The translations under genes and the position numbers were made by a program. 64,000 nt of DNA from Oscillatoria sp. FACHB-1407 (GTDB lineage: Bacteria > Cyanobacteriota > Cyanobacteriia > Elainellales > Elainellaceae): positions 62,001 to 126,000 of the forward strand of contig NZ_JACJSA010000003.1 in assembly GCF_014697545.1 (NCBI RefSeq). The letters are read 5' to 3'. A model generated the notes under the pieces. The model did not search any database. It saw nothing but the letters and a program-made list of their open reading frames with translations, and was not told the origin of the DNA. Positions 22,141 to 58,241 of the stretch are shown here, one piece after another; position 1 is the stretch's first letter; every line of letters starts with the position of its first letter.

Positions 22141-23523
22141 CTACTCCCTGCTCCCTACTCTCCACTCCCTTGTCAGTTGTTGACAAACAATCTCCGCTAA
22201 CTTCGTAGCGGCTCCCGCTTCTCCCCGCACAGCCCGCAAGCGATCGCGAATCTGATCTAACTCTTCGGGGTGTTCCAACCAATTCAGGGCAATATCCGCC
22301 ACTTGTTGGGGCTTGAGGATGCCGACTAACTCTGGCACGATCGCCTCCTGCGCCCAGATGTTAGGCCACGCCAATAGTCGAGGCTTACGGAGAAACCACC
22401 AGTTAATCGCACTGGCAAAGGCTGAACCGACTCCCGGCAGGTTTGCCAGTAATCCCGGTAAGCCATCCCAGGCTCGCATCGCATCTGCCTGTTGCATCGG
22501 AATCATGACAATCATTGGTATAGCCAGCGATCCGAGTTCGGCGGTGTTTGCTCCAACCGTCGTCAGGCAGAACCGACACTGAGACAGGACAGGGTAAGCG
22601 GGAAACGCTGTCCACAGATCAACCCTCAATCCCCCACTCGTTTTGAGATAGGGAGTCTCAGGATGAGATACCAGTTCAGCCGTAACCCCATCAAAAGCGG
22701 CAATGAGGGGATTATGGTGTGGGTCAGCAAATCGAGCCAGTTCCGTGAGGGTCAGTGTGGGTGCGACCGGGATAACAAACCGCGTGTCTGGATGAGCAGC
22801 ATGAATGCGTTGGGCGATCGCCAACGATAGCGGCAATCCCTGAGCGAGTTTGGCAGGTTTAGAGCCGGGGAGTAGACCGATGAGGGAGGGAGAGGGTGTT
22901 GGGGTGTTGGGGTGTTGGGGTGTGAGGGTGTGAGGGTGATTGGGTGTTGGGGTAATGGAGTACTCCCCTACTCTCCCACTCTCCGACTCTCCCACTCCCC
23001 TACTCTCCCACTCCCCTACTCTCCCACTCCCCACGTCTGCCATCAGATCGCCCACGACGGTGAACTTATGGACATATCGAGCCGGGGCACGATCGATTAA
23101 GTCCGGTTTCATCACGCCAAAGTGGTCGATCCAGCGATGCCAACGGGTATCCCATTCGCCATAGGTGACAGTGCGATAGCCCAATCGTTTACCGATGAGA
23201 ACGGTGTAAAACTGATCTCCCCCCAGAAACAAGACAACTCCGCGATCGCGCCAATCCCAGTTGCCAGCCGTTTTGCCCCACAGCAGAAACGAAAAGAAGT
23301 GCTCGGCAGATTGAATGCGATCGAGTTCAGGATAGGTTTGGGCGATCGCCACCTCTTTGCCGCTGGCGTTGGGACAGGGAGACAAGATCAGAGAGAGGCG
23401 AACCAGGGCGCGATGATTCCCTAACGTTTCTCGGAGTGCCTTGACGACAGGGCGTACCCAGGTGGTCACTTCTCCTGGGCCATTGGAGAGGATGACGATG
23501 TCAATCGGTGGAGATAAATTCAC
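22141..23523 (-). CDS. Lipid-A-disaccharide synthase-related protein with repeat-encoded insert
   Basis: A 460-aa cyanobacterial relative of LpxB (GT-B glycosyltransferase fold). ILSNGPGEVTTWVRPVVKAL opens the first domain, FLGGDQFYTVLIGKRLGYRTV follows, and LIGLLPGSKPAKL and TVGANTAELGSLAIPMIVMI mark the second. Residues ~164-212 are a low-complexity stretch (GRVGEWESRGVGESES, then TPTPNHPHTLTPQHPNTPTP) encoded by 7- and 8-bp tandem repeats. They interrupt VGDLM-GLLPGSK, which would normally be nearly contiguous. The last eight residues (EWRVGSRE) also read out of repeat DNA. Confidence 0.85.
   Translation of the reverse strand: MNLSPPIDIVILSNGPGEVTTWVRPVVKALRETLGNHRALVRLSLILSPCPNASGKEVAIAQTYPELDRIQSAEHFFSFLLWGKTAGNWDWRDRGVVLFLGGDQFYTVLIGKRLGYRTVTYGEWDTRWHRWIDHFGVMKPDLIDRAPARYVHKFTVVGDLMADVGSGRVGEWESRGVGESESGRVGEYSITPTPNHPHTLTPQHPNTPTPSPSLIGLLPGSKPAKLAQGLPLSLAIAQRIHAAHPDTRFVIPVAPTLTLTELARFADPHHNPLIAAFDGVTAELVSHPETPYLKTSGGLRVDLWTAFPAYPVLSQCRFCLTTVGANTAELGSLAIPMIVMIPMQQADAMRAWDGLPGLLANLPGVGSAFASAINWWFLRKPRLLAWPNIWAQEAIVPELVGILKPQQVADIALNWLEHPEELDQIRDRLRAVRGEAGAATKLAEIVCQQLTREWRVGSRE
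22888..23034 (-). repeat. In-frame tandem repeats inside the LpxB-like gene
   Basis: Two adjoining arrays: on the minus strand GGGAGTG/GGAGAGT-type heptads, then octads of ACCCTCAC and ACCCCAAC. They are the same kinds that fill intergenic gaps here, but they stay in frame across 49 codons. Confidence 0.85.
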
Positions 23524-38516: not shown

Positions 38517-38820
38517 AAGAATGGTCAATGGTTAATGGTCAGTGGTCAATGGTCAATGGTCAATGGTTAATGGTCAGTGGCTTCGCCGTGAGCTTAGTCG
38601 AACGGTCAATGGTCAGTGGTCAATGGTCAGTGGTCAATAGTCAGGGGTTGATGGTAGAAACGATTAACCATTGACAATTGACGATTAACGCTCTTCACAA
38701 CTAACGGTTGATGCTAAAAACGATTGACAATTAACAATTGACAATTGACGCTCCCCATAACTAACGGTTGATGGTAGAAACGATTAACCATTGACAATTG
38801 ACAATTGACGATGCTCATGG
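38517..38820. repeat. Composite heptad array with ~76-bp higher-order repeat
   Basis: The first part (38523-38650) is GTCAATG, GTTAATG and GTCAGTG units. The second is about three copies of a ~76-bp block built from AACGGTTGATG, GAAACGATTAACC and runs of ATTGACA. The two halves are in opposite orientation. No gene is seen in the 38415-38865 gap. Confidence 0.9.
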
Positions 38821-47094: not shown

Positions 47095-47335
47095 AGTCAG
47101 TAGTCAATGGTCAATAGTCAGTGGTCAATGGTCAGTAGCAGCAATCAACCATTGACGATTGACAATTGACAATTGACCGGGGTCAATAGCAGTAACCAAC
47201 CATTAACGATTGACAATTGACAATTGACAATTAACGATTAACAGTTGACCGAAGCTAATCGGCAGTGGTCAGCTATCAACCATTGACAATTGACAATTGA
47301 CCACTAACCCTTCACCCTTCACCCTCTATCCCTTC
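47095..47335. repeat. Heptad array (GTCAATG/ATTGACA classes, both orientations)
   Basis: GTCAATG, GTCAGTG and GTCAATA units open the array. The rest is built on ATTGACA, ATTGACG and ATTAACG runs in opposite orientation. It fills the gap between convergent genes. Confidence 0.9.
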
Positions 47336-49882: not shown

Positions 49883-50187
49883 GAAGAATGAAAAAAGAAG
49901 AGAGAAAAAGGAGAAATGGGGAGTAGGGAGTGGGGAATAGGGAGCAGCACACTTATCTACCGATTTACTCAGTACTATCAACTACTGACTATTGACCATT
50001 AACCACTGACCATGGGCTACTAACTATTGACCACTGACCACTGACTATTGACCACTGACTATTGACCATTGACCACTGACCATTGGCTACTAACTATTGA
50101 CCACCGACCACTGACTATTGACCACTGACTATTGACTATTGACCACTGACCACTGACTATTGACTATTGACTATTGACTCCTAAACC
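49883..50187. repeat. Heptad array between the two permease genes
   Basis: A short GGGGAGT-type stretch (49917-49945) is followed by a long run of CACTGAC, TATTGAC and CATTGAC units (~49975-50175). This is the reverse complement class of the 9784 array. It separates two operon genes that usually abut. Confidence 0.92.
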
Positions 50188-51198: not shown

Positions 51199-51507
51199 GG
51201 AGGAAAGGGGGAGTGGGGAATAGGGAATGGGGAATGGGAAATGGGGAGAGACGCAATTAATCGCGTCTGTACTGAGCGGGTAATCGCGTCTGTACTGAGC
51301 GGGTAATCGCGTCTGTACTGAGCGGGTAATCGCGTCTGTATGGGTAATCGTGTTTGTACGAGAGAGATAGGTTAAGGCAGTAGGGGAGCGAAGGAGTAGG
51401 GAGATGGGTAGAGGAGTGGAGGAGTGAGAGGGTGGATAAACTCATCCTGTTTTCCCCCTATCCCTCTATCTCATGACTTCTCTACCCCTTCACTCCTTGA
51501 CTTGTTG
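51199..51507. repeat. Repeat cluster between permease and binding-protein genes
   Basis: 51249-51268 is a one-base variant of the 20-bp palindrome (AGACGCAATTAATCGCGTCT). Its right half then seeds a ~23-bp tandem unit (TCGCGTCTGTACTGAGCGGG plus TAA), repeated three to four times to ~51352. GGGGAAT and CTCTACC-type heptads flank it. No gene is seen. Confidence 0.9.
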
Positions 51508-55393: not shown

Positions 55394-55783
55394 GTAAGGC
55401 GTGGGGTAGAAGGTAAGAGGGGCAATTGTTAATCGTCAATTGTCACTTGTTAATCGTCAATTGTTCCTAGCATCAACTCGGTAGTGTTTCAGATCTGTTG
55501 CTACTAACCCCCGGCTGTCGCCGTCCCCCTTACCAAGGGGAACTACAGGGGGTCTTACAGAGGTTATTAACAGGTTTGGAACACCACCCTACTGACTATT
55601 GACTACTGACTACTGACCACTGACCACTGACTACTGACTACTGACCACTGACTACTGACCATTGACTACTGACTACTGACTACTGACCATTGACTACTGA
55701 CTATTGACCATTGACTACTGACTACTGACCACTGACTACTGACCCCTGACCCTTAACCCCTTACCCCTGTTAGCCATCAACGA
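55394..55783. repeat. Repeat-filled gap: heptads, C/G-run inverted repeat, heptads
   Basis: ~55421-55470 has AATTGTT, AATCGTC and AATTGTC heptads. 55507-55553 is a nested inverted repeat (ACCCCC..GGGGGT around CCCCTT/AAGGGG), related to the MITE interior. ~55590-55745 is a CACTGAC, TACTGAC and CATTGAC array. No gene is seen. Confidence 0.9.
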
Positions 55784-57396: not shown

Positions 57397-57452
57397 GCCG
57401 TCTGTTCTGACTAATTCGCTTGCGATCGCCATCCTTCGTTGTTACTATCCCC

Positions 57453-58241
57453 ATGAAATTCCATCGCCTCCTTGCTCTTACTCTGTTAACCACGATTGGT
57501 TTGACAACTCCAGCCCTGGCTGAAGATTTGGAGCGGGTCTATCAACTCACCTCAACTCGTGAGTGTCCCGCCTGTGATTTGAGTCGCGCTAGTTTTGTCC
57601 TGTCGGATTTATCAGAAACGAACCTGGCAGGAGCAAACCTCGCTGAAGCCAATCTCAATCGCACCAATCTGACAAACGCAAACCTGGCAGGAGCAAACCT
57701 TTCGAGAGCGATTTTGTTTAACGCCAATTTGACTGGAGCAGATCTGCGGGGGGCAGACCTGCGGGGGGCAGACCTGCGCGAGGCATACCTGACCGGAGCT
57801 AACCTGGATGGAGCCTTATTGGATGGAGCAAACCTGTTGGGAGCGGTAGGCTTGCCACAGACGATCGCTACCCCAGAGCAGATGTATGTTTGGGGTTTAG
57901 CGGAATATCAACGCGAAAACTTTAGAGGGGCAATTAATTATTACAATCAGGCACTTAATGCAAAACCTGACTTTGCCCATGCTCTCTTGGCGCGAGGTGT
58001 CTCGCGATTTCGGATGCGGGACTTCAACGGCGCACTGCAAGATGCCAGAAGTGCTGAACAGCTTTATTTAACCCAGAGCAACCCAGAGGGACACCAAATC
58101 TCAGGTCAATTTATTGCCGGAATCGAAGCTCTGCAAGAAGCCCAGGCACAAGGCGATCGCCGCGCATCAGGTGCAGGGGGCGGAAACTTTATGAACTTCC
58201 TGGGTTCAATTACAGGTCTATTGTTCCGATTCTTGTTTTAG
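57453..58241 (+). CDS. Secreted pentapeptide-repeat plus TPR protein
   Basis: 262 aa from ATG 57453; an in-frame TTG at 57420 is rejected because the signal peptide begins at MKFHRLLALTLL. After cleavage near ALAED, residues ~45-130 are A(N/D)LxxAxL pentapeptide repeats forming a right-handed beta-helix. TPR-like helices follow (YQRENFRGAINYYNQALNAK). A C-terminal hydrophobic stretch ends GSITGLLFRFLF. Function unknown, perhaps a periplasmic scaffold. Confidence 0.88.
   Translation: MKFHRLLALTLLTTIGLTTPALAEDLERVYQLTSTRECPACDLSRASFVLSDLSETNLAGANLAEANLNRTNLTNANLAGANLSRAILFNANLTGADLRGADLRGADLREAYLTGANLDGALLDGANLLGAVGLPQTIATPEQMYVWGLAEYQRENFRGAINYYNQALNAKPDFAHALLARGVSRFRMRDFNGALQDARSAEQLYLTQSNPEGHQISGQFIAGIEALQEAQAQGDRRASGAGGGNFMNFLGSITGLLFRFLF

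Follow-up and report, generated by a model that had tools for sequence, protein, structure and literature searches.

The window, by which we mean the whole 64,000-nucleotide stretch of DNA analysed here, covers C3:62001-126000 of a genome of 8.13 Mb in 66 contigs (G000), and the relatives with which it has been compared are named cyanobacteria. It contains a gene for a predicted LpxB-like protein in which repeat DNA occupies the linker between two domains and is read in frame (Table 1). Matches to this protein were found in 57 of the 60 genomes searched, its own genome counted, and in all 50 of those with a completeness of 90% or more and a contamination of 5% or less, which agrees with the original prediction that a kind of repeat dispersed in the genome has entered a core-type gene in frame.

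Table 1. Features of the LpxB-like gene and of its repeat DNA (window positions)
Feature	Position	Strand	Basis
LpxB-like predicted GT-B-fold protein, 460 aa	22141-23523	-	ORF, GTG start
Interdomain linker, 153 nt, 51 codons	22879-23031	-	Alignment of the two flanking domains
Repeat insert as originally predicted	22888-23034	-	Sequence and repeat arrays
First coding-strand arm: four copies of a G-rich 16-bp unit, GGGAGTGGGAGAGTAG, with two substitutions	22962-23034	-	Period 16, 92% matches
Second coding-strand arm: C-rich octamers, ACACCCCA/ACACCCTC type	22892-22953	-	Periods 8 and 32
C-terminal tail and stop codon of the LpxB-like gene, derived from repeats	22141-22170	-	Sequence

The window protein itself matched no Pfam family in the family search and gave a weak match to TIGR03492, below the curated threshold (19.8 bits, cut-off 219.2). 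In alignment A1, 38 of the 46 members matched PF02684 (LpxB), 41 matched TIGR03492 and 33 matched TIGR00215 at E<=0.01, and a profile of all 46 matched E. coli LpxB (5w8s) with an E-value of 1.3e-6 in the profile search. The AlphaFold2 model of the window protein has a mean pLDDT of 87.9 and a pTM of 0.85. The first four matches of its fold search against the PDB included a UDP-GlcNAc 2-epimerase (1v4v_B, E 8.8e-10) and LpxB (5w8x, E 3.3e-9), with moderate TM-scores per query of 0.49 and 0.36, respectively; both enzymes are of the GT-B class. The fold and profile searches agree with the two Rossmann-like domains of the GT-B fold. From these profiles and the predicted model we call the protein LpxB-like; its identity as LpxB itself and a role in lipid A disaccharide synthesis are not claimed. 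Comparison of the window gene with five relatives gave dN values of 0.12-0.28 against dS values of 1.5-4.1, which are saturated, and the flanking domains are under purifying selection. The low dN/dS of these domains suggests that the gene may be functional.

The coding strand around the linker reads VGDLMADV-GSGRVGEWESRGVGESESGRVGEYSITPTPNHPHTLTPQHPNTPTPSPSLI-GLLPGSK, with 54 residues between VGDLM and GLLPGSK, and the linker alignment places the insert in frame within the LpxB-like ORF. Tandem Repeats Finder reported the two arms of Table 1 as arrays with periods of 8, 16 and 32 inside the 460-codon ORF, and the self-similarity of the linker at period 8 is 60.5 as compared to a maximum of 11 among 200 codon shuffles, so that the presence of in-frame repeat DNA in this gene, as first proposed, is borne out. 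The consensus unit computed for the window blends the two unlike arms. The proposed length of 49 residues, encoded by 147 nt (49 codons), describes the repeat core reasonably well. The flanking motifs had also been supposed to lie normally close together and this part did not hold, since a linker of 14-68 codons with a median of 21 is present in 109 orthologues and is hence natural in the family; the excess of the window linker over the family median is about 30 residues. In the AlphaFold2 model, residues 176-207, placed between the helix 169-175 and the strand 214-218, are the sole segment of three or more residues with a pLDDT below 50, and the window linker is accordingly modelled as a putative disordered hinge between the two domains. 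The last nine codons of the gene (REWRVGSRE) and its stop codon form a second repeat piece. An array was likewise seen at the 3' end of the LpxB-like gene of L100. The 16-bp unit contains TAG, which is replaced by TCG in the third copy, where TAG would be in frame. This replacement was considered as proof of selection after the insertion and was rejected, because other copies of the repeat (L112, L116 and others) also have GTCGG variants within or next to them; it is thus a condition of survival and not a proof of selection.

A BLAST search with the 153-nt window linker against its own genome gave at least 34 matches at E<=1e-3, itself included, and since 40 of the 81 candidates were scored, the 33 other places are a lower bound. 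All 33 lie outside the window, and among the matches listed none spans the whole insert, the longest covering 103 of the 153 nt. Loci were made from 29 of these places, and 19 of them score 15 or more at period 7 or 8. The earlier statement that 7- and 8-bp repeats from intergenic DNA encode the insert can thus be kept in part: dispersed repeat DNA does encode it, with at least 33 related places in the genome, and its units are of 8 and 16 bp and not of 7 bp. The other arrays in the window belong mostly to 7-bp families, unlike the units of the insert.

Several other repeats of the window genome were also observed. Long arrays of the AATGGTC/ATTGACA/CTACTGA heptamer families are present in the window at 38520-38810, 47095-47301, 49981-50179 and 55589-55751, and the entry of such arrays into a gene would depend on orientation, as they have stop triplets on at least one strand. 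In 787 kb of the window genome the palindromic word ACGCGATTAATCGCGT was counted 11 times, twice in the window (51258-51359), and it also lies next to arrays in L120, L128 and L139; a 23-bp tandem with 100% matches at 51258-51340 contains TAATCGCGTCT. An ORF at 57420-58241 encodes pentapeptide-like repeats from 15-bp repeats, which is an ordinary amino-acid repeat in contrast to the 7/8-bp arrays. Foldback as a general origin of the arrays was also tried and rejected: under a strict criterion, a reverse-complement 10-mer within 150 bp was found at 4 of the 49 arrays in the same 787 kb, as compared to 47 of 980 random places.

The family-wide comparison included 110 loci, 30 from the genome search and the best 80 of 261 relatives, so the orthologue sample is the better-scoring part of the relatives. 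Linkers could be cut from 109 of these loci (L020 is without its first half), of which 101 are distinct. The lengths of all 109 linkers are multiples of three nucleotides, and none of the 101 distinct linkers contains a stop. The linkers are filled differently in different lineages, with SALSTQH repeats in L036, AEEQRSRG repeats in L045, ITNYQLP in L057, KIQNPKSK in L038 and GQGGQGGQ in L107. Array-bearing loci from named strains include L044 (Scytonema tolypothrichoides VB-61278), L061 (Nostoc sp. FACHB-280) and L104 (Nostoc parmelioides FACHB-3921). The same insert in distant genera, which would have pointed to an ancestral sequence, was not found among these orthologues; other genera have different inserts or short linkers at this position. 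The insertion is not a single event; it is a recurrent pattern at one hinge that has a pre-existing natural linker.

Tandem self-similarity of 15 or more was found in 34 of the 101 distinct linkers, with a period of 7 nt in 21 of them, 8 in eight, 9 in three, and a single linker each at 14 and 15. In the DNA, a period of 7 or 8 nt is unlike the product of amino-acid repetition. Only one of 1,728 equal-length segments taken as controls from the folded domains of the same genes scored as high, and this segment (L049:3793-3904) is a second in-frame insert of ACTCAGC heptamers in a loop of the second domain, outside the linker. In a codon-shuffle test 45 of the 101 linkers stand out, and the other 56 may represent either repeats that have decayed or normal protein sequence. 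In L031-L110, ORFs of 150 aa or more were further surveyed for arrays of period 7 or 8 scoring 20 or more. Outside the linker three were found, two in the target gene and one in 269 other ORFs (292 kb), as compared to 38 arrays in the non-ORF DNA (163 kb, with ORFs shorter than 150 aa counted as part of it). From these array counts, the LpxB-like hinge acts like intergenic DNA within a gene.

The number of separate events has been estimated on a tree of 100 genes, made with the linker left out, in which 48 of the 97 inner branches are open, so that all counts of change are rough. The presence of an array requires at least 20 changes on this tree. Among the 33 linkers that have a 7/8-nt array, 24 exact units were counted, and the exact unit requires at least 25 changes; the figure of 24 overstates the variety, since half of the units lie within one mismatch of another. 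Grouping by single linkage, with chaining, in any rotation or on either strand, leaves 12 groups if one mismatch is tolerated and 7 if two are, and the changes among the 32 carriers are then at least 17 and 7, respectively. Some units are common to relatives (ACTCCCC is present in six linkers), so part of the pattern is inheritance. These observations bear on the possibility that all lineages inherited one ancestral repeat linker, which then diversified where it stood through slippage and unit drift, with no repeated landings. The merging of many heptamers into a few groups is in its favour, and so are two pairs of sister loci that share junctions and unit type and have been altered in place. 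L036 and L061 differ by 63 nt, or nine heptamers, and L044 and L088 by a single gap of 24 nt, or three octamers, in an octamer array that reads GAGCAGGG in one and GAGCTGGG in the other. Inheritance and change in place may hence hold inside small clades. As an account of the whole family it is unlikely, as linkers without arrays and of short length are found across the whole tree, arrays of five different periods occur, and the heptamer array of L080 contains a segment that is not made of heptamers. The domains of L044 and L109 are close (dS 0.16 and 0.14, dN 0.038 and 0.013), and despite this their linkers have little in common past the first residues, which speaks for a fast turnover of the linker between constrained flanks. 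The closest relative of the window gene in the tree is 74% identical, and the insertion in the window is for this reason without an empty-site comparison.

Entire dispersed elements within two of the linkers contradict purely ancestral inheritance for both. Five linkers other than that of the window were each searched in the host genome and seven more genomes at E<=1e-3, with all counts as lower bounds because no more than 40 candidates were scored, and the host genome gave, self included, at least 44 matches for L036, 51 for L040, 91 for L004, 43 for L045 and 79 for L025, where for L004 and L025 overlapping matches on both strands were counted twice. The host genome held the most matches for four of the five, and the exception is L004, for which the window genome was higher (184). 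The linker of L025 (L025:1309-1512) contains in frame a dispersed palindrome of about 155 bp. Its host has 39 further near-full copies at 88-93% identity, which match on both strands, and weaker matches are present in the window genome (36). In the linker of L040, stretches of 81-84 bp match four other places at 98-100% identity, and the place with the 100% match lies at a contig end. Judged by these copies, the linkers of L025 and L040 look like landings of dispersed repeats and not like the result of slippage alone.

The reading frame puts a simple condition on such DNA. The total length of a linker has to be divisible by three, as it is in all 109. As the unit length is not a multiple of three, a pure array leaves either every frame of a strand open or none of them, and 21 of the 49 arrays in 787 kb of the window genome have all three frames open on at least one strand. 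In the linkers, 31 of 33 units contain no stop when read on the coding strand, and in 10 of the 31 the opposite strand does contain one; the two exceptions, L037 and L083, are short low-scoring arrays whose linkers are still open. The RNA of the linkers has also been considered, as the arrays might be retained for a function, either as a folded or G-rich mRNA that slows the ribosome between the domains or as a spacer of required length. In comparison to 40 codon shuffles, a fold z of -2 or lower was found for 21 of the 101 linkers and for 13 of the 30 with at least 28 codons, the window included; no linker reached 2 or more. An earlier run on 15 hand-picked linkers gave nine that were more stable than their shuffles. 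Together with the presence of arrays in about a third of the linkers and the formation of quadruplexes in vitro that the available part of PMC4692102 describes for such G-rich heptamers, these values speak for a function. It is nevertheless improbable that function explains the arrays, because the median z is only -0.18 across the 101 linkers, many linkers are just 14-20 codons long and have no array, the units vary from G-rich to C-rich or AT-rich, and no conserved length or structure was seen among the linkers. The inverted repeats of landed elements, such as the palindrome of L025, can give an equal excess of folding without any function, and a role at the RNA level remains compatible with the same excess.

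A trivial origin, in which the arrays come from errors of assembly or sequencing or the gene is decaying, has also to be weighed, since repeats disrupt assemblies: the gene is split between two contigs in G010, one half on each, and in L012 the reading frame is broken further along the gene. This is a very remote prospect, as an array-bearing linker is also present in a single-contig genome (G002, L002), every linker measured is divisible by three, and the flanks are under purifying selection.

The reading that we consider highly probable is that a disordered, length-tolerant hinge absorbs repeats of the genome, which grow and shrink there as selection holds the frame. In the window, almost the whole of the hinge would consist of dispersed repeats. 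The repeats are observed to be dispersed, and by some route of movement they would land in many places. Landings in folded domains would mostly be lost and those in the LpxB-like hinge kept, as the length and the sequence of the hinge are probably little constrained. A unit that is not a multiple of three would cycle through all frames, and in its stop-free orientation it could be read through. The arrays would then expand or contract by slippage or recombination, and only net changes in multiples of 3 nt would survive, so that a surviving step would amount to three units (21 or 24 nt). The hinge would turn over fast, and the frame of the gene would be kept by selection on its flanking domains. 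The inserted peptide would presumably be neutral in such a process, and the protein is presumably produced.

The LpxB-like hinge was also considered as an absolutely unique site and this was rejected, as linkers of LarC-like proteins also hold 7/8-nt arrays. In a survey of 500 ORFs (599 kb) of the window genome, arrays were found in five, the strongest being that of the LpxB-like target. Two others lie in the linkers of a LarC-like nickel-insertion protein (PF01969) and of a CheA-like protein, and the remaining two (C1:20596 and C1:91927) lie in reading frames that look doubtful as genes. Among 30 loci of the LarC-like linker, 7/8-nt arrays scoring 15 or more are present in three (L181, which is the window genome's own, L183 and L203), and in L202 such an array lies in another loop of the protein. 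All 30 of these linkers are multiples of three, and the other LarC-like repeats, with periods divisible by three, may be amino-acid repeats.

At L148:1849-3390 (G000:C3:141849-143390) the LarC-like protein has an in-frame heptamer array, GEERREKKEERRE, in its linker, and its relatives have highly variable linkers and a second variable loop, which is His-rich. At L173:92-2482 (G000:C1:120092-122482) a CheA-like histidine kinase with Hpt, HATPase and CheW domains has an array of octamers, PLSPPSPLPLHPSTPPPSQSP, in the linker that follows its Hpt domain.

Repeats read in frame in bacterial genes are already known, and their recurrence at one cyanobacterial hinge is the larger finding here. The systems compared below are described as in the available parts of the papers cited. 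Small dispersed repeats within genes, translated in frame, are established in Rickettsia as RPE (Ogata et al. 2000, 2002, via PMC10969869). In that source RPE are families of about 150 bp in many unrelated genes of one genus, unlike the present case of one hinge in one gene with differing repeats, mostly 7/8-bp arrays, in many genera. The window insert is not an RPE-type palindrome with many full-length copies and its foldback is modest (z -2.7 and -2.8), whereas the palindrome of L025 comes near to RPE in kind. STRR hairpins are known between cyanobacterial genes (PMC2670836), as heptanucleotide arrays of filamentous cyanobacteria, and are reported inside the RNase P RNA gene (Vioque 1997). 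The window insert shares with STRR the many dispersed copies in the genome, and differs from them in its 8/16-bp units and periods of 8, 16 and 32; the STRR-like period of 7 is that of 21 of the 34 high-scoring orthologue linkers. The accounts available place STRR between genes and in RNA.

In Nostoc PCC 7120, 68% of the GGGGA(C/T)T repeats are intergenic, which leaves roughly one in three touching an ORF (Rehm et al. 2015, PMC4692102). The legend to Fig. 2 of that paper, the one place in its available text where lpxB is named, marks it among 'repeat associated genes'. Whether the repeats lie inside or beside lpxB is left unstated there, and the main text, as far as available, speaks of neither a linker nor an in-frame position; the mark may be an earlier sighting of the same phenomenon. 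The TAACTGA heptamers have stops in all frames in one orientation and are open in the other, and it has been suggested that heptamer insertion might be tolerated between the subunits of modular proteins (MacGregor 2015, PMC4679880). Most of the in-ORF cases in that account, unlike ours, lie at protein ends or in short hypothetical proteins, and its available part does not describe a recurrent linker. RU-1 to RU-3 (ERIC and relatives) are likewise intergenic repeats fused in frame to ORFs, and differ in being enterobacterial elements of 127, 168 and 103 bp (Delihas 2007, PMC2759123). A search of titles and abstracts gave no published account of one linker colonised recurrently by differing repeats, on which Elhai 2008, Vioque 1997 and Ogata 2002 may say more.

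Taken more widely, the hinges between domains of cyanobacterial proteins could serve throughout much of the phylum as permanent points of entry for dispersed repeats, and the repeats of a genome would then write the peptides of its linkers, with the LpxB-like protein as the clearest case and the LarC-like and CheA-like proteins as further ones. We hold this generalisation tentatively, at a little under an even chance. If it is true, repeat DNA would be a regular and fast source of new disordered protein and not an accident. The hinge suggests a route from repetitive DNA to protein without breakage of the gene. It is a natural replicated experiment, with one site in about a hundred lineages filled by different repeats and always in frame, and it allows the repeat tolerance of a protein, the speed of linker turnover and the question of whether coding arrays grow in three-unit steps to be addressed by measurement. 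It is also a warning to annotators and structural biologists that a cyanobacterial linker may be genome repeat and not conserved protein sequence.
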